DNA of 16,463 nucleotides from Acidobacteriota bacterium (GTDB lineage Bacteria > Acidobacteriota > Terriglobia > Terriglobales > Acidobacteriaceae). The translations under genes and the position numbers were made by a program. Of this stretch, positions 7,530 through 12,918 are shown in pieces. The stretch covers positions 1 through 16,463 of the forward strand of contig JAKART010000012.1 in assembly GCA_021819255.1 (NCBI GenBank), in the 5' to 3' direction. The notes under the pieces were generated by a model. The model saw only the letters and a list, made by a program, of their open reading frames with translations, was not told the DNA's origin and did no database searches. The first letter of the stretch is position 1. Every line of letters begins with the position of its first letter.

Positions 7530-7716
7530 GCTCCGATGGTATTCGAACCGGCCGGGGTTGCCGCATGCGGCTGGAGCCGTCGGGCGCGCGGGCGCCTGCG
7601 GCCTATGGCATTTCCGGTGTTCACGGGCATCCCGAAGCAGGCTTGCAGCCGCGCTTTTCCTGGTGGAAAGCGCCCATCGAAGCCCGGGCGCCCCCTACAC
7701 CTGCACCGAAAATGCC

Positions 7717-8028
7717 TCAGCGCTTGCGCAGCTTGCGCGCCATCCTCCGCGTCCACTGCACGCCCAGAAAGCTGAGCGCAACCGCCATCACCACCGCCCC
7801 CACTGGAAGACCCGCCAGACGGTAGGCCAGGGCGAAGTCCGGGTGTCGTCCCGTCGCCATCCGGTAGCCGAGCATGGAGAGGATCGCGACGAAGGTCGAT
7901 AGAAAGAACGCGGCCATCCCGGCCGCCGTCCCGAACAAGAGTGATTGGAACCAGCCCAGCTCTCCCAGGGGAATGCCCAACACCTGGCCCTCCCGGCGCG
8001 CGCGCTCGTCATCGTGTGCAGTAGCCAT
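7717..8028 (-). CDS. Small two-helix membrane protein, unknown function
   Basis: The protein has about 103 residues. After a charged N terminus (HDDERARREGQ) it has two hydrophobic segments: roughly SLLFGTAAGMAAFFLSTFVA with following residues, and LAGLPVGAVVMAVALSFLGV. It ends in a strongly basic tail (RRMARKLRKR) likely to face the cytoplasm. I do not recognise a family. Two starts are possible, ATG 8034 and ATG 8028. I prefer 8028 because a minus-strand TATTCT (-10) at 8042-8037 ends 8 nt before it, which would give a leaderless transcript, whereas 8034 would lie before the predicted transcription start. It is divergent from the gene at 8048, and the two share overlapping -10 boxes. Confidence 0.7.
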   Translation of the reverse strand: MATAHDDERARREGQVLGIPLGELGWFQSLLFGTAAGMAAFFLSTFVAILSMLGYRMATGRHPDFALAYRLAGLPVGAVVMAVALSFLGVQWTRRMARKLRKR

Positions 8029-8047: not shown

Positions 8048-9199
8048 GTGGCAGAGACTGTCCATAACGGCCGGGTCACCCAGATGGTACGCCCGGCGCG
8101 CCTGGTGAATGCGGCGCAGATCGCGCGCGACACAGAGGTCCGGCAATCGCCCAACGGTGTCCGCTTCGCCACCTTTGGCGAGACCGGACTGGCAGACCTG
8201 GATCTGGACCGCATGCTGCAGACCGTCCCCACGGCGATCACTGCGGCGCTCAAGGCGAACACCTACTACTTTGTTCCCCTGGCCATGCGCGAAGCCGCGC
8301 TGGACCTGGAGACTCAGGGCTCGGGGATTGTAAATCCCGCGGCTCGCCCGGAGGATCCAGAGAGCCAGGAGGATCCAGAGAGCCAGGAGGTTCCAGAGAG
8401 CCCGGAGGATCCGGAGCGCCCGGCGTCAGAGCCGCAGCCGGCCCAACCGCAGCCGGCTCAAGCGCAGCTCTCTGGGGCGTCCGCCGCCGCGCCGCCGGCC
8501 ATGGTGGCCAGCGCCTACAGCGAAGAGTTTTCCGACGCCGCCATCTGCCATCGCAACCTTGACCTGGAGCAGGGCCGGCGCGCCGTCTTCATCTCCACGC
8601 GGTTGATGGGCGACCGCTTTGCGCTGAGCTTTGAGTTCTTCATCAATGTGGCCCATGCCTTCGTGGAACGGTCTGGGGTGCCCGCCTCCTTCGCCGATCC
8701 CGTGTGGCGGCAGGCGCTGCGCGGCGTCCGCGGCGAGACGAGCATCGATGCCTGGGAGACGCGCAACCTCGCCTTTGGCCGTCCGGCCAACGCACCTCCC
8801 GAACCCGCGCCTCCGCTCTCTCGGCGCAATCGCGCCTCCATGGGCGACCGTTCCTCCGCGCCGGCCCAGGAGCGCGCCTTTGCCCGCGCCGCGGAAGAAT
8901 CCTCCCGCCAGCCGGCCCTTGACGACCCGGCCGACGACCCGGCCCAAACCGGCGCTCTGGCGGATTCCGACGGCCCGCACCATAACGAGCGCGCTCTGTA
9001 CCTGGAGGCAGCCTTCTCGGACGCGTTGGCCATCTACCTACTCTCGCTGGCGCTGGACTTTGACTACAGCGAGCTGCGCGAGCGTGAGTATCCCCTCCTG
9101 CACCCCTCGGCACTGGCCGAGCGTCTGCGCCTGGCCGCCAACCTTTTTCCGCCCAACCCAGGCTACGAGTTCGCCCTGCGTTACCGCCGCAGAGCCTGA
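8048..9199 (+). CDS. Uncharacterised 383-aa protein with EDPESQ repeats
   Basis: I do not recognise a family. No signal peptide or membrane helix is evident, so it is probably cytosolic. It has three compact parts separated by low-complexity linkers. The N-terminal part (1-92) includes VRFATFGETGLADLDLDRML and a TAALKANTYYFVPLAMREAAL helix. A middle part (about 150-245) includes RRAVFISTRLMGDRFALSFEFFINVAHAFVE. The C-terminal part (about 318-383) is rich in Leu and acidic residues (YLEAAFSDALAIYLLSLALDFDYSELRE). Linker 1 (102-125) is encoded by four 18-bp repeats and is followed by a PQPAQPQPAQAQ stretch; linker 2 (about 250-315) is Pro/Ala/Asp-rich. The GTG start at 8048 fits the -10 box at 8036. 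A structural or adaptor role is possible but speculative. Confidence 0.75.
   Translation: MAETVHNGRVTQMVRPARLVNAAQIARDTEVRQSPNGVRFATFGETGLADLDLDRMLQTVPTAITAALKANTYYFVPLAMREAALDLETQGSGIVNPAARPEDPESQEDPESQEVPESPEDPERPASEPQPAQPQPAQAQLSGASAAAPPAMVASAYSEEFSDAAICHRNLDLEQGRRAVFISTRLMGDRFALSFEFFINVAHAFVERSGVPASFADPVWRQALRGVRGETSIDAWETRNLAFGRPANAPPEPAPPLSRRNRASMGDRSSAPAQERAFARAAEESSRQPALDDPADDPAQTGALADSDGPHHNERALYLEAAFSDALAIYLLSLALDFDYSELREREYPLLHPSALAERLRLAANLFPPNPGYEFALRYRRRA
8351..8422 (+). repeat. Four 18-bp in-frame repeats
   Basis: The units begin at 8351, 8369, 8387 and 8405; the first two are identical (GAGGATCCAGAGAGCCAG) and the others differ at one to a few bases. They encode an EDPESQ hexapeptide and variants, an acidic flexible linker. 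The identity of two units suggests recent slippage and a variable copy number. Confidence 0.9.
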
Positions 9200-9480
9200 A
9201 GCACGTTCCAGCACAACCGCCCAAACATTCTCCCCGGATCCCGCAGCGTGCTCCCTCCTACATCGCCGTCCCCTTCAGTCTCCCTCGATCCACGGCAAAC
9301 CGACCGCGAACGTCTTTCTTTAAGAACGTAGTCCTGTTCCTCGTCCGTCCGAAGACCACAATATGCTTTACCGCCAATTCATCCCGGAAAGCCATGGCTC
9401 CATTGCCACCAGCAAGACCCGGTGGATTCCGGATTTTTCATGCTGTTTGGCTACGTCTAACCACGATGACCAAGGAAATA
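9200..9480. other. Intergenic region, no clear feature
   Basis: These 281 bp contain C-rich sequence without a recognisable terminator or promoter. An open frame from 9394 runs into the next gene but its first 29 residues lack the expected signal-peptide structure, so I treat it as untranslated leader. Confidence 0.4.
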
Positions 9481-10332
9481 ATGCCGAAAACGATGAGCTC
9501 TCTCTCCCTAGCACTCCTCGGCCTGGCGCTTCCGTTCTACCCTCTCGCGCTGCAGGCGCAGAACAATTATGAGATCCAGGTGTACCCGTCGGAAACCGTT
9601 GCGCCCAACACCTTGCTGACAGAACTGCACAGCAACTTCACCGTGGAAGGCAGCACCACCACCCAATATGGGATGCTGCCCACGCAGCACCAGGAGCACG
9701 AAACCATCGAACTCACCGAGGGCATCACAAATTGGTCCGAGGTGGGCTTTTACATCTTTACCGCCGAGCGCAACGGCAACGGCGTTCAGTGGGTGGGCGA
9801 CCATATACGGCCACGTGTGCGCGCTCCGCTGAGTTGGCATCTACCGGTGGGGCTCAGCCTGTCCAATGAGATTGGCTACGCCCGGCCGGAGTTCGCCAAC
9901 CCAACCTGGTCCTGGCAGATCATGCCCATCATCGATAAGACCAGCGGGCGATGGTACTGGTCGGTGAACACGACGATGAACTGGGGGCACCCGGTGCCCC
10001 CACCGCCGAATTACACTGCGGAACAGAGGGCCACCTATTTCCGCGACGTTTCTCCGCATGGCGTCACCTTTGGCCCCGCAGCCACGCTGACGTACCAGCC
10101 CTCGAAGTATTACAACTTGGGAATCGAATACTACGGATACTACGGCGAGTTTGGCCACTTCGTGTCTCTACACAACCAGCAGCAGCAGTTCTTCCCGGTG
10201 ATCAACCTGTTTGTCTCACCAAACTGGGAGATCAATATCGGCGCCGGATGGGGCGCAACGGCATCCACGGACCATCTGATCGTGAAGGGGATCCTGGGCC
10301 ATTACTTCAACTGGCGTAAACCAAAATCGTGA
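9481..10332 (+). CDS. Secreted, probably outer-membrane beta-barrel protein, unknown function
   Basis: From ATG 9481 the protein is 283 aa with a clear signal peptide: MPKTMSSLSLALLGLALPFY, then PLALQAQ-NN as the cleavage region. I chose this start because AAGGAA (9472-9477) precedes it and because it places the signal peptide at the N terminus; ATG 9466 and a TTG/ATG further upstream are less likely. The mature part is rich in aromatic residues, with alternating patterns such as GFYIFTAERNGNG, YYNLGIEYYGYYGEFGHF and WEINIGAGWG, typical of transmembrane beta-strands. It ends in GHYFNWRKPKS, not in a terminal aromatic residue. TELHSNFTVEG and EHETIELTEGITNWSEVGFY look conserved-domain-like, but I cannot name a family. 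It is followed by the accessory region. Confidence 0.7.
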   Translation: MPKTMSSLSLALLGLALPFYPLALQAQNNYEIQVYPSETVAPNTLLTELHSNFTVEGSTTTQYGMLPTQHQEHETIELTEGITNWSEVGFYIFTAERNGNGVQWVGDHIRPRVRAPLSWHLPVGLSLSNEIGYARPEFANPTWSWQIMPIIDKTSGRWYWSVNTTMNWGHPVPPPPNYTAEQRATYFRDVSPHGVTFGPAATLTYQPSKYYNLGIEYYGYYGEFGHFVSLHNQQQQFFPVINLFVSPNWEINIGAGWGATASTDHLIVKGILGHYFNWRKPKS

Positions 10333-10481
10333 GCGCCTGCCGCGCCGGAGGGGCCGCCGGCCCTGTCGAGTTCCGGACACCTTCGAGGAGAAGTAGGTCC
10401 CTCGGCACCCTCCGCTCCCTTCAGGGCTAAGGTCGCGCGGGGCCGAACCAAAACAGGAGGAACACGGAAGAGCCCCTCCAA
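10333..10481. other. GC-rich stretch before the ruvA-end copy
   Basis: No gene is seen. A GGGCC-GCC-GGCCC stem at about 10357-10372 has no T-run, so it is weak as a terminator. The part with CCCTTCAGGGCTAAGG resembles repeat-like intergenic DNA I associate with Terriglobia, which would need a genome search. Confidence 0.35.
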
Positions 10482-10524
10482 CGCACCGCGGACATCGCGG
10501 CGCGGAAGAGCTGCTCAAAGTCGC
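10482..10524. repeat. Diverged 43-bp copy of the ruvA 3' end (left repeat)
   Basis: It matches 12323-12365 at 39 of 43 positions, in the same orientation. Read on the minus strand in the ruvA frame it gives DFEQLFRAAMSAVRW, against DFERLFRAAMSAVR-stop at the true gene end. Most differences are synonymous and the stop codon has become TGG. Such a displaced gene end is the usual mark of insertion at the 3' end of a gene. Confidence 0.85.
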
Positions 10525-10664
10525 ATGTCATTCACAACAATGCGCGCTCCCAATACCTTGCGCTGCTTTGCAAAGACGATGACCCCGGCATTGATGGACT
10601 CATCGCGGTCCACACGAGGCACCAGACGCACAACCGCGTATTCATAAGGAACTCCATCGAGCAC
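10515..10664 (-). pseudogene. Truncated DUF3037 protein gene (49 codons)
   Basis: A GTG at 10664 follows a strong AAAGGAGG ribosome site (plus-strand 10671-10678) by 6 nt. The product reads VPYEYAVVRLVPRVDRDESI then NAGVIVFAKQRKVLGARI, the N-terminal signature of DUF3037 proteins (YxYAVVRxVPxxxxxExINxGVIxF). Family members are usually well over 100 aa; here a stop at 10515 ends the frame after 49 residues. The last codons and the stop lie inside the ruvA-end copy (10482-10524), so the gene was cut at that junction. The function of DUF3037 is unknown; it often follows a HipA-like kinase gene, and such a remnant lies directly upstream. The stub may still be translated. Confidence 0.65.
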
Positions 10665-10725
10665 GCAGGACCTCCTTTTCAAAGACTGCTGAGTTTTCCA
10701 GGCGCCGCATCAGGAATCTCACGCA
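10642..10725 (-). pseudogene. C-terminal remnant of a HipA-like kinase gene
   Basis: This minus-strand frame has 27 codons before its stop and reads FLMRRLENSAVFEKEVLRARWSSL. It resembles the C-terminal end of HipA-like proteins, which in many bacteria precede DUF3037 genes. It overlaps the DUF3037 start by 23 nt, an arrangement typical of translationally coupled pairs. An in-frame stop lies at 10726-10728 and no further kinase sequence is visible upstream, so only the tail is left. The identification depends on a short sequence and on its neighbour. Confidence 0.35.
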
Positions 10726-10937
10726 TCACACTCTCCTGATTTCGGCAGACACGTCACTGCTGAACGTTATCCATAACCAGCTCGCTGGCCACCGTCTACC
10801 CGTTTAGTCGTGTTCTAAGCGAATAATGTATTTTATCGGTTTAGGGGTTAAGAACCGTCAGACGAGTCGCCACAAGTATTGAACGGCTGATTCTGCAATG
10901 CGTTTCAGCCTCACCTTCAGACGCAGGTTCGCAAACG
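10726..10937. other. Non-coding leader region of the endonuclease gene
   Basis: The part near 10800-10860 is AT-rich (for example AATAATGTATTTTATC at about 10822-10837) and probably contains the promoter of the gene at 10938, with TAATGT or TATTTT as possible -10 boxes. No -35 box can be assigned with confidence and no gene is seen. Confidence 0.4.
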
Positions 10938-12155
10938 ATGCCAACGTCCAAGACCGATACCGCCGTAAAGCTAGGATCGACCACCGTCAATGAGGCCAAG
11001 TGCGTCGCGGAACTCGAAGACCTCAAAGCCGCCATAATAGCTTGGGCCGAGAACCATGAACTCTGGCATGATGCTAATTTCCAGACACCGTTCATTTATA
11101 GAGACGAGGCACCGGAACGTCATATCGTCCTCCTGTTGCTTTTTGCAGGACCTCTCTACCACGTGTTTAACTGCACCTACGATGAGTGCGCCGGGCTCTA
11201 CAAGGAGTTCGACGCTCTGCTGCAAGAGCACGGCTTTTGGGGTGAACTGCAGAATTGCTACACGCTAAATATCATGCCCTCGGACGAACAGCGTGCGGAT
11301 GCCTATCTAGCACTTCACCGTTGGCAGTGGATACAGCATCTTGCAAAAGGGCGACTCTTCGATATCCATTCGGAAGTATTCGAACATTTCGCCGGCTACC
11401 CGGACCACTTGGCACGCTTGGAGTGGCGACAGTATGAGGAATTTCTGGATGCGGTATTCAGGAACCAAGGGTTCCGCACAGAACTGGGACCTGGCTCCAA
11501 TGACGGCGGTATAGACGTTCGTCTCTATCAGAGCGCATCCATACCGCAGATGGTCACCATCGTACAAGCCAAGAAATACGCGGCGACCCGCCCAATCCAA
11601 CTTGAAGCAGTCGCCGCGCTGTATGGACATACGGTTGTAGCCAAGGCCAGTAAGGGAATTCTGGCGACCACATCAAGGTTTCAACCCGCTGCGAAGAAGT
11701 TTGCTCTTAGCGTTGCTTCCCGCGTAGGGCTACCGACTTTAGACCTAGTGGACTCACAGTGCATCGGAGGTTGGTGTGCGGAAATTGCGAAAGAACTGGA
11801 CGGTTATTTCAGCAGCGGCGCGACGCTTAGCCCACCTGTAATCACGGCGGAACATCGTAAAGGCTTAACTGGAAGCATCGTTGTGGCCAGGGGCGGCCAC
11901 GATATGGCCATCAACTATTTCGCGAAGATTGTCGCTGACTTTCCCCATGAAGTCATCTTGGAATCGCTCCCATCCGAAGAAGCGAGCGGCGATGGACAGA
12001 CGGGCACTGTAGTGCCAAACACTCACAAGGGTTCAGGCCTGCGCTTCACTGCTTTCAAGCGCAAACGCGAGAATGGGCCTCTCGACTATTGGGGCGGTGG
12101 ACGCTTGTATTCGTACTGGGATGGAACTCCGCAGCATTTCGACTACCGCGACTAA
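10938..12155 (+). CDS. Mrr-type restriction endonuclease with unknown flanking domains
   Basis: The middle of this 405-aa protein is an Mrr catalytic (PD-(D/E)xK nuclease) domain, about 162-275. WRQYEEFLDAVFRNQGF (163-179) carries the helix glutamate, GSNDGGIDVRLY (186-197) carries Asp193, and VTIVQAKKYA (206-215) gives the QxK motif with Lys212. ASKGILATTSRFQPAA and the following helix complete the fold. Mrr-type enzymes commonly cut modified foreign DNA and need no partner methyltransferase; none is present here. Residues 1-160 and about 290-405 match nothing I recognise; one end probably reads the target. Base composition differs from its neighbours: 11041-11100 has 27 G+C of 60, 13141-13200 has 44 of 60. 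The start has no strong ribosome site. Confidence 0.85.
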   Translation: MPTSKTDTAVKLGSTTVNEAKCVAELEDLKAAIIAWAENHELWHDANFQTPFIYRDEAPERHIVLLLLFAGPLYHVFNCTYDECAGLYKEFDALLQEHGFWGELQNCYTLNIMPSDEQRADAYLALHRWQWIQHLAKGRLFDIHSEVFEHFAGYPDHLARLEWRQYEEFLDAVFRNQGFRTELGPGSNDGGIDVRLYQSASIPQMVTIVQAKKYAATRPIQLEAVAALYGHTVVAKASKGILATTSRFQPAAKKFALSVASRVGLPTLDLVDSQCIGGWCAEIAKELDGYFSSGATLSPPVITAEHRKGLTGSIVVARGGHDMAINYFAKIVADFPHEVILESLPSEEASGDGQTGTVVPNTHKGSGLRFTAFKRKRENGPLDYWGGGRLYSYWDGTPQHFDYRD

Positions 12156-12318
12156 GCGAAATAGCGCACATCGCGCTCCTGTTCCGCCACCTGCCGCACG
12201 GCGTTGGGGAGTGTGGCGTTCTGGCAGAGGCCGGGGCGGGCTCTATCTGCTTCTTCAGATTTGCACCCCCTCAAGCTGAGGGTACGCTTACGAAACACCG
12301 GGCGGCATAGCCTGCTCT
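12156..12318. other. Gap between endonuclease gene and ruvA
   Basis: This 163-bp convergent gap contains a hairpin with CCCTCA (12268-12273), loop AGC, TGAGGG (12277-12282). No T-run follows on either strand, so its role as a terminator is uncertain. Nothing else was identified. Confidence 0.4.
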
Positions 12319-12918
12319 TCAGCGCACGGCGGACATCGCGGCACGGAAGAGCCGCTCGAAGTCGCCCGCCACCGAGGTATCTTTGGCTGCGGCCTGCACC
12401 GCCTTCTGCGCCACCGGGCGCGGATAGCCGAGGTTGATCAGAGCGCTCAGCACATCCTCTTCCAGCACGCCCAGCGGCGGCGCGGCAGCCGCTCCCCCCG
12501 CCGCAAAGGCCGCTACATCGTCCAGCTTGTCCTTCAGCTCCAGCACCACGCGCTCGGCCGTCTTCTTGCCGATGCCGGGGATCCGCGTCAGCGTGGCGTG
12601 ATCGCCACCGCGGATAGCGCCCGCCAGCCGCTCGGCGGAGATGCCGCTCAACACTGTAATCGCCAGCTTCGGCCCGATGCCGGAGACCGCCAGCAGCTTC
12701 TCAAAGAGCCTCTTCTCCGTGAGCTCCGCAAAGCCGAAGAGCAGCAGCGCGTCCTCCCGGACGTGGGTGTGCACGTGCAGGCTGGCCTGAGCGCCGGGCT
12801 CGCCGAGCCCGGTGTAGGTGGTCACCGAGATTGCCAGCTCGTAGCCCACCCCGCCGCACTCGATCACCACCGCGTTCGGCGTCCTGCTCAGAATCTGTCC
12901 ACGAAGATGCGCAATCAT
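12319..12918 (-). CDS. ruvA: Holliday junction branch migration protein RuvA
   Basis: RuvA binds four-way DNA junctions as tetramers and loads the RuvB motor for recombination and repair. This 199-aa protein has the normal length. The N-terminal OB-fold begins MIAHLRGQI and includes GGVGYELAIS (22-31) and HTHVREDALLLFGF (50-63). Two helix-hairpin-helix motifs contain SGIGPKLA (79-86) and IPGIGKKTAERVVLEL (113-128). After a flexible Ala-rich linker comes the RuvB-contacting domain, ending GDFERLFRAAMSAVR. A GAGAGGAG ribosome site overlaps the plsC stop 16 bp upstream, so it is translated in an operon with plsC. ruvB and ruvC are not in the window. Its last 43 bp are repeated at 10482. Confidence 0.96.
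   Translation of the reverse strand: MIAHLRGQILSRTPNAVVIECGGVGYELAISVTTYTGLGEPGAQASLHVHTHVREDALLLFGFAELTEKRLFEKLLAVSGIGPKLAITVLSGISAERLAGAIRGGDHATLTRIPGIGKKTAERVVLELKDKLDDVAAFAAGGAAAAPPLGVLEEDVLSALINLGYPRPVAQKAVQAAAKDTSVAGDFERLFRAAMSAVR
12323..12365. repeat. ruvA 3' end, right-hand copy of the 43-bp repeat
   Basis: These are the last codons of the intact ruvA. The left copy at 10482-10524 has the same orientation and 39 of 43 identical bases. The two copies enclose the endonuclease gene and the broken HipA-like/DUF3037 remnant, a segment of about 1.8 kb. Confidence 0.85.

Follow-up and report, generated by a model that had tools for sequence, protein, structure and literature searches.

Homology-facilitated illegitimate recombination in natural transformation joins foreign DNA beside a homologous stretch at a microhomology. 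Restriction-modification (R-M) genes have been found inserted between long target duplications of varying length (Nobusato et al. 2000 and Furuta et al. 2010, cited in PMC3874152 and PMC3031569), cis-mobilizable elements (CIMEs) possess attL and attR without integration genes and have been described as undergoing accretion (PMC5704250), and the H47 genomic island of E. coli is excised via short direct repeats without a recombinase of its own (PMC5426353). The subject of this analysis is a segment behind the repair gene ruvA in a 16,463-nt stretch of DNA from an Acidobacteriota bacterium of the Acidobacteriaceae, a soil-dwelling family (assembly GCA_021819255.1, contig JAKART010000012.1), called the window hereafter. 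The insert is bounded by direct copies of a target that is single in other genomes, namely the 3' end of ruvA.

The closest described kind of event is the R-M-type target duplication. According to the published descriptions, the two have in common that restriction-type cargo is bounded by a direct copy of the target, that this copy is of variable length (of the order of 100 bp, PMC3874152) and that no recombinase is seen in the insert. The locus described here differs in that the same gene end, that of ruvA, is affected in several lineages and also with other cargo, and in that the window carries a solitary Mrr-type nuclease, not an R-M pair. Recurrent use of ruvA as the target is possibly a new trait; a literature search covering titles and abstract openings found nothing on ruvA as an insertion site. 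For an enzyme-based explanation, CIMEs and their accretion, as outlined in PMC5704250, may be regarded as the closest described counterpart. They resemble the ruvA segment in the displaced gene 3' end, the intact target gene, the missing integrase and the stacking seen in one relative (G408), whereas at ruvA no relative with an integrase was found and no common core was shown. The H47 island is likewise small, with short direct repeats and no recombinase of its own; its excision has been seen, while the ruvA insert is known from sequence alone, and the H47 abstract mentions no gene 3' end.

The locus offers, within one family and at one gene, a case of repeated gene gain, several times of defence or toxin-antitoxin genes, without a visible mobility gene and with edges that are still readable. 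How solitary genes for restriction or for toxin-antitoxin pairs move can thereby be put to the test. Edges formed by microhomology joints would need no more than random capture together with selection for an intact repair gene; a core shared by the edges would mean that an unknown recombination system acts at ruvA.

The displaced ruvA end in the window

Read from right to left, the window contains ruvA, 163 bp of further DNA, the Mrr gene, a stretch without a recognised intact gene, a fragment of a DUF3037 gene, the displaced ruvA end, a second accessory gene and gene X, the conserved convergent neighbour that closes the gap behind ruvA in relatives (Table 1). The two ruvA ends form a direct repeat of 49 nt with 43/49 identical positions (88%) at a spacing of 1841. 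A preliminary description of this DNA had reported a 43-bp copy in the same orientation with 39 identical bases, which was recovered as 39/43 within this longer extent. The similarity is far above chance, as the ungapped local score of 37 compares with a maximum of 16 in 100 dinucleotide-keeping shuffles of the downstream 8 kb and with at most 17 in reversed-query controls over 103 ruvA loci. Translated in the ruvA frame, the displaced copy reads DFEQLFRAAMSAVRW. Six codons are changed, four of them synonymously, one from R to Q and one from the stop codon to W, in agreement with the earlier remark that the differences are mostly synonymous. The displaced copy matches the ruvA end of the sister genome G014 at 42/46 nt and the window's own at 40/46 nt; as it is slightly nearer to the G014 end, the duplication would therefore have arisen within the lineage or from a near relative. 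Both copies appear to have changed after the duplication. Directly beyond the displaced copy, 19 nt show a marginal match to an internal part of the ruvA end; they may have been left by an earlier insertion or be similar by chance.

The other edge of the displaced copy falls into a broken gene. The DUF3037 frame enters the ruvA copy and stops there. Nineteen DUF3037 homologues, out of 29 other genomes with a match, were examined; all 19 proteins extend past the break, and 15 of them read Arg-Leu at its position. The codons CGA CTT probably belong both to DUF3037 and to the ruvA sequence GGC GAC TTC, and the conserved codons of the homologues point to a microhomology of 6-7 nt, GCGACTT, at the joint. 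No intact version of the window's own DUF3037 gene was seen. The preliminary description had spoken of broken toxin-antitoxin-like remains inside the segment: what could be identified of them is the first 41 of 118 DUF3037 positions on the minus strand, which need not belong to a toxin-antitoxin system.

The ruvA-X gap and displaced ends in relatives

To place the segment in context, 28 ruvA loci were fetched from 27 genus mates, and the gap behind ruvA was measured up to the end of the X protein match. In 23 loci one stretch contains both ruvA and, behind it, gene X. The gap between them does not exceed 275 bp in 16 of these loci, amounts to 475 bp in one and ranges from 1.05 to 5.15 kb in six. 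The stretches of the other five loci, those of G014 and G017 among them, gave no X; in these two genomes X is on a different contig. In all five closest relatives, whose RuvA is 88-97% identical, the gap is filled, with different DNA in each, and three of them carry restriction, SIR2-like or toxin-antitoxin-type cargo. G015 has a 1049-aa restriction-type helicase (PADLOC mREase_IV, 757 bits; ResIII, DUF3427) and G018 a Gp49-family gene, a PDC-S01 ATPase and more, while the cargo of G017 is spread over two contigs: one carries a SIR2-like gene (E 2e-4, under the Pfam cut-off), the second a RES-domain gene and, upstream of it, a partner gene without a Pfam match. The gap of G016 contains a 554-aa gene without a Pfam match and a mid-ruvA fragment, and G014 has other DNA on two contigs, with insertion sequence-like genes recognised by eye. 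Cargo outside defence is present too: G016 counts as such, as do G012, G023 and G025, whose genes were read by eye as having other functions. Near relatives thus differ in what they carry behind ruvA, which supports a hotspot of insertion there, in line with the preliminary description; different defence genes are part of this cargo, the window's own genome (G000) contributing the Mrr gene. The alignment of the window with G014, 4147 columns long and extending to 2 nt beyond the ruvA stop codon, has 95.4% nucleotide identity, and the DNA straight after this codon is unconserved even among near relatives. None of the 28 fetched genus loci has a second ruvA 3' end behind ruvA.

Displaced ruvA ends bound other cargo in other lineages, a conclusion supported by several searches. 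A narrow ruvA-end pattern matched 94 of 398 family genomes, and two matches linked to ruvA or X were obtained only for the window and G017. The second copy of G017 (61 nt, 91.8% like its own ruvA end) lies beside X, on another contig than ruvA. When 103 loci were compared ungapped with their own ruvA end, G168 ranked next with a score of 22, all others reaching at most 18. Its displaced end (23/24 nt, about 717 nt past ruvA) encloses only a RelE-type and an HTH-type gene, a toxin-antitoxin pair to which names such as HigB/HigA may apply. The corresponding empty site is seen in the G168 relatives G247 and G412, where ruvA, within about 45 nt, meets sequence that in G168 is found beyond the copy.

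Further cases came from a gapped two-strand scan of 129 loci, in which some genomes are represented twice. G035 has an inverted copy of 37 nt adjoining what by eye are remains of the same toxin-antitoxin pair as in G168, and G172, which is Terriglobus albidus DSM 26559 by its identical ruvA sequence, has a more decayed copy of 93 nt at 73% (E 4e-7). The permease behind ruvA is common to G172 and its relatives L106 and L281, for which the scans reported no displaced ruvA end. G408 was fetched on purpose, its toxin-antitoxin pair sharing a contig with the downstream gene; here (L234) two displaced ends are stacked (85 nt at 74% and 24 nt at 87.5%). They lie about 1.1 and 3.6 kb from ruvA, on its downstream side, and bound different cargo; the second directly follows a toxin-antitoxin-like pair. 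In G318 a weak copy occupies the equivalent position, recognised by eye only and unreported by blastn. The clear cases of an all-against-all search of ends were G017 (86 bits), the window (71), G035 (56) and G408 (47). Among 44 further ruvA loci (43 long enough) none stood out, the best being an inverted 23-nt stretch in L304 with 38.3 bits against 36.5 for the reversed control. Across the cases, displaced ends measure 24, 37, 49, 61, 85 and 93 nt. Cargo and lineage suggest at least four events (the window, G017, the G168 group and G172), and the toxin-antitoxin cases may trace to one insertion. The group of G168, G408 and G035 is labelled "Terracidiphilus-like" via G199 alone, a member with the same ruvA sequence as Terracidiphilus gabretensis S55.

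Some matches have to be read differently. The DNA past the displaced copy of G017 resembles the post-ruvA DNA of G016 (135 nt, 81.5%), a likeness that is given little weight as native flank because the sequence is a dispersed repeat, matched 11 to at least 40 times in each genome. A second ruvA match in G145 proved to be a contig-end overlap, and a supposed third ruvA copy in G024 was a pattern match on C30 to another protein. In G259 the ruvA-end pattern matches twice, at a distance of 110 kb. A profile built from the whole set of ruvA ends, which is less sensitive than pairwise search, gave weak matches 6.9 kb past ruvA in L117 (E 3e-4) and 8.4 kb past it in L146 (E 0.011).

Whether ruvA stands out among genes was addressed by a control to which each genome contributed one locus (129 usable out of 175 distinct ruvA loci) and which counted displaced ends at most 4 nt from the stop codon, within 8 kb downstream, on the same strand and not in a paralogue. 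Such ends occur at 4/129 ruvA genes and at 3/1322 other conserved genes (Fisher p 0.0017), or at 3/128 ruvA genes when the window as the starting case is left out (p 0.011). A smaller control without the window's own ruvA gave 2/65 for ruvA against 1/726 for others, the latter being a repeat whose frame is doubtful. An excess at ruvA is suggested, and since three other genes show displaced ends as well, such events are not peculiar to ruvA. The one-locus-per-genome control included a non-ruvA gene end in L304 (14986-16342 of the oriented locus) with a 96-nt copy (80%) about 1.1 kb downstream of it.

Origin of the duplicated end

Illegitimate insertion with duplication of the target end is favoured over a dedicated enzyme, at a probability of about one half. 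The gap between ruvA and its convergent neighbour would be a tolerated landing place, in which the family repeatedly gains foreign genes. A piece of DNA with the Mrr gene and the start of the DUF3037 gene would have been added behind ruvA, its far end becoming joined to the last ~46 nt of ruvA by illegitimate, microhomology-guided recombination. The ruvA end would thus have been duplicated, with one copy completing the working gene and the other left to decay beyond the insert, and a second gene (9394-10332) would have been gained beyond the displaced end. The joining itself may have combined one-sided homologous with illegitimate recombination, or may have come about by template switching. 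The order of these events is a reconstruction, as is the selection that would retain only events leaving ruvA whole. Homology-facilitated illegitimate recombination is alike in that DNA is added beside a homologous stretch, with a joint at a microhomology that is likewise proposed here, and different in that no mosaic ruvA is seen. Differences between the ruvA genes of the window and G014 are spread along the gene, so that, as their identity shows no clear break, a diverged donor ruvA is not indicated.

The preliminary description had instead proposed site-specific insertion at the ruvA 3' end, with integrases to be sought in related elements. Its statement that the segment has no integrase agrees with the lack of a PF00589 match on the window contig. 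Six genomes, that of the window and those of its five closest relatives, together contain 42 matches to this family, none of them (0/42) on the contigs with a ruvA gap, serine recombinases not having been searched, and a crude motif scan for tyrosine integrases over 1.33 Mb of fetched loci returned 8 hits, none of which was credible by eye. An integrase of related elements at ruvA was accordingly not found. A CIME-like remnant, with attL and attR kept, the integrase lost or acting in trans and stacking by accretion, is nevertheless what the classical picture of integration suggests, in which a 3' end is displaced while the gene is kept whole. Displaced ruvA ends recur in several lineages, and the two stacked ends of G408 resemble CIME accretion as presented in PMC5704250. 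Moreover, the six most similar toxin-antitoxin homologues without ruvA within 1.5 kb (L206, L207 and L209-L212) have no gene-end repeat beside the pair, which ties the repeat to the site and not to the toxin-antitoxin cargo. (L209 has a repeat farther out from the pair, apparently a dispersed one.) What speaks against such a remnant is that no tyrosine integrase lies in or near the cases examined, even where the toxin-antitoxin insert measures a mere 0.7 kb, that the left edges vary, and that the joint of the window lies in a broken gene at what appears to be a microhomology. The copies do reach within a few nucleotides of the stop codon, their left edges differing in the few cases available, but repeats ending there are weak evidence for an enzyme because the DNA after the stop codon is unconserved among near relatives. 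It is mainly the joint inside the truncated DUF3037 gene that makes error-prone joining preferable to a site-specific recombinase, and the site-specific remnant is considered somewhat unlikely. Under a further reading, the Acidobacteriaceae would have a true docking site at the ruvA 3' end, where integrase-less cassettes of cargo plus ruvA end are stacked by a host or trans-acting recombinase that pushes old ends outward, as in G408; this is considered unlikely.

The displaced end could also be what is left of a longer, once complete or nearly complete second ruvA that was brought in with the cargo by recombination and has eroded to its 3' end. The relatives contain observations of this kind: in G016 (L050) an 82-nt mid-ruvA fragment (75.6%, in ruvA orientation) lies near X on the far side of the insert, about 1936-2017 nt past ruvA, and G024 (L073, L074) has two differing ruvA-X blocks that are 84% alike, by duplication or in a mixed assembly. 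The 23/24-nt copy of G168, however, has sharp edges with the antitoxin gene right upstream, and upstream of the copy in the window there is DUF3037 sequence, not ruvA, so that erosion of a second gene seems rather improbable. Chance similarity or an assembly artefact has to be considered as the window makes up an entire contig (C239) of an assembly that comprises 2.7 Mb in 465 contigs and is 67% complete, as a contig-end overlap did mimic a copy in G145, and as the weaker cases G172 and G318 are near noise. Against this stand the score of the repeat in relation to its shuffles and its location within one contig; a chimeric contig is disfavoured because the gene order flanking the segment on both sides matches that of relatives. 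An artefact is accordingly very improbable.

Several observations weigh against illegitimate insertion at a hotspot, or against the strength of its comparative basis. If recombination had been one-sided and the donor diverged, ruvA should be a mosaic, which is not seen, although a very close donor would leave no such trace. All left edges are confined to the last ~90 nt of the 600-nt gene, which is tighter than random joining predicts; recombinational loss of longer repeats could explain this clustering. In G168 and G408 the antitoxin gene is followed at once by similarly tight joints, which would be expected of a defined unit but may also go back to a shared origin. The truncation of DUF3037 could be a later deletion within a site-specific island. 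In G407 and G417, where the DNA behind ruvA contains the toxin-antitoxin pair or what remains of it, blastn reported no displaced end, G168 and G172 (41.9 bits) are barely above the best reversed control (38.3) of the all-against-all search, and the G172 copy lies within the noise of the ungapped test (17). When both the window and the purposely fetched G408 are left out of the control, 2/127 compares with 3/1322 (p 0.064). The comparison with empty sites that the preliminary description had called for succeeded in part: near-empty ruvA-X alleles exist in more distant genus mates, but no empty allele is known for the window's own species, and the sister G014 is occupied.

Cargo and neighbouring features

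The restriction endonuclease gene named in the preliminary description is of the Mrr type, its catalytic domain PF04471 scoring 73.8 bits against a Pfam cut-off of 21; PADLOC places it with PDC-S02 (E 3.3e-9) and mREase_IV (E 1.7e-8). As an Mrr-type (type IV) nuclease it would be expected to cleave modified DNA. Among the best 7996 candidates scored, 122 database proteins match, the nearest non-self protein being 72% identical. Searches for the context of Mrr homologues in genome and viral contig collections, which reach close relatives only, returned no relative. The 163-bp stretch behind ruvA has no blastn similarity to the post-ruvA DNA of 20 relatives compared. Homologues of the second accessory gene are present in 16 of the 27 genus mates, none of them at ruvA. 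A tRNA search found none as insertion target.

Table 1. Coordinates of the ruvA-end repeat, the cargo and the adjoining genes in the window
Feature	Position	Strand	Basis
ruvA, intact, 199 aa	12319..12918	-	PF01330, PF14520, PF07499 matches
ruvA 3' end, proximal repeat copy	12317..12365	-	Repeat search
Displaced ruvA 3'-end copy, stop codon changed to TGG	10476..10524	-	Repeat search, sequence comparison
Possible third partial copy (19 nt) of the inside of the ruvA end	10463..10481	-	17/19, E 0.012
Mrr-type restriction endonuclease, 405 aa, intact frame	10938..12155	+	PF04471; PADLOC
DUF3037 gene fragment, cut where the ruvA copy begins	10518..10664	-	PF11236 positions 1-41 of 118, E 1.7e-12
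GCGACTT, putative junction microhomology	10518..10524	-	Readable as DUF3037 codons and as ruvA
163 bp between ruvA stop and Mrr gene	12156..12318		blastn
Second accessory gene of the gap, 312 aa, no Pfam match	9394..10332	+	Pfam search
Gene X, conserved convergent neighbour closing the gap in relatives, no Pfam match	8048..9199	+	Gene order in relatives

Between genes, at about 7607-7720 of the window and at L088:1700-1825, a dispersed repeat was also noted, about 115 nt long and bounded by imperfect inverted sequences (by eye); it may be palindromic or resemble a miniature inverted-repeat transposable element. The genome of the window and those of five relatives each have between 11 and at least 40 matches to this repeat.

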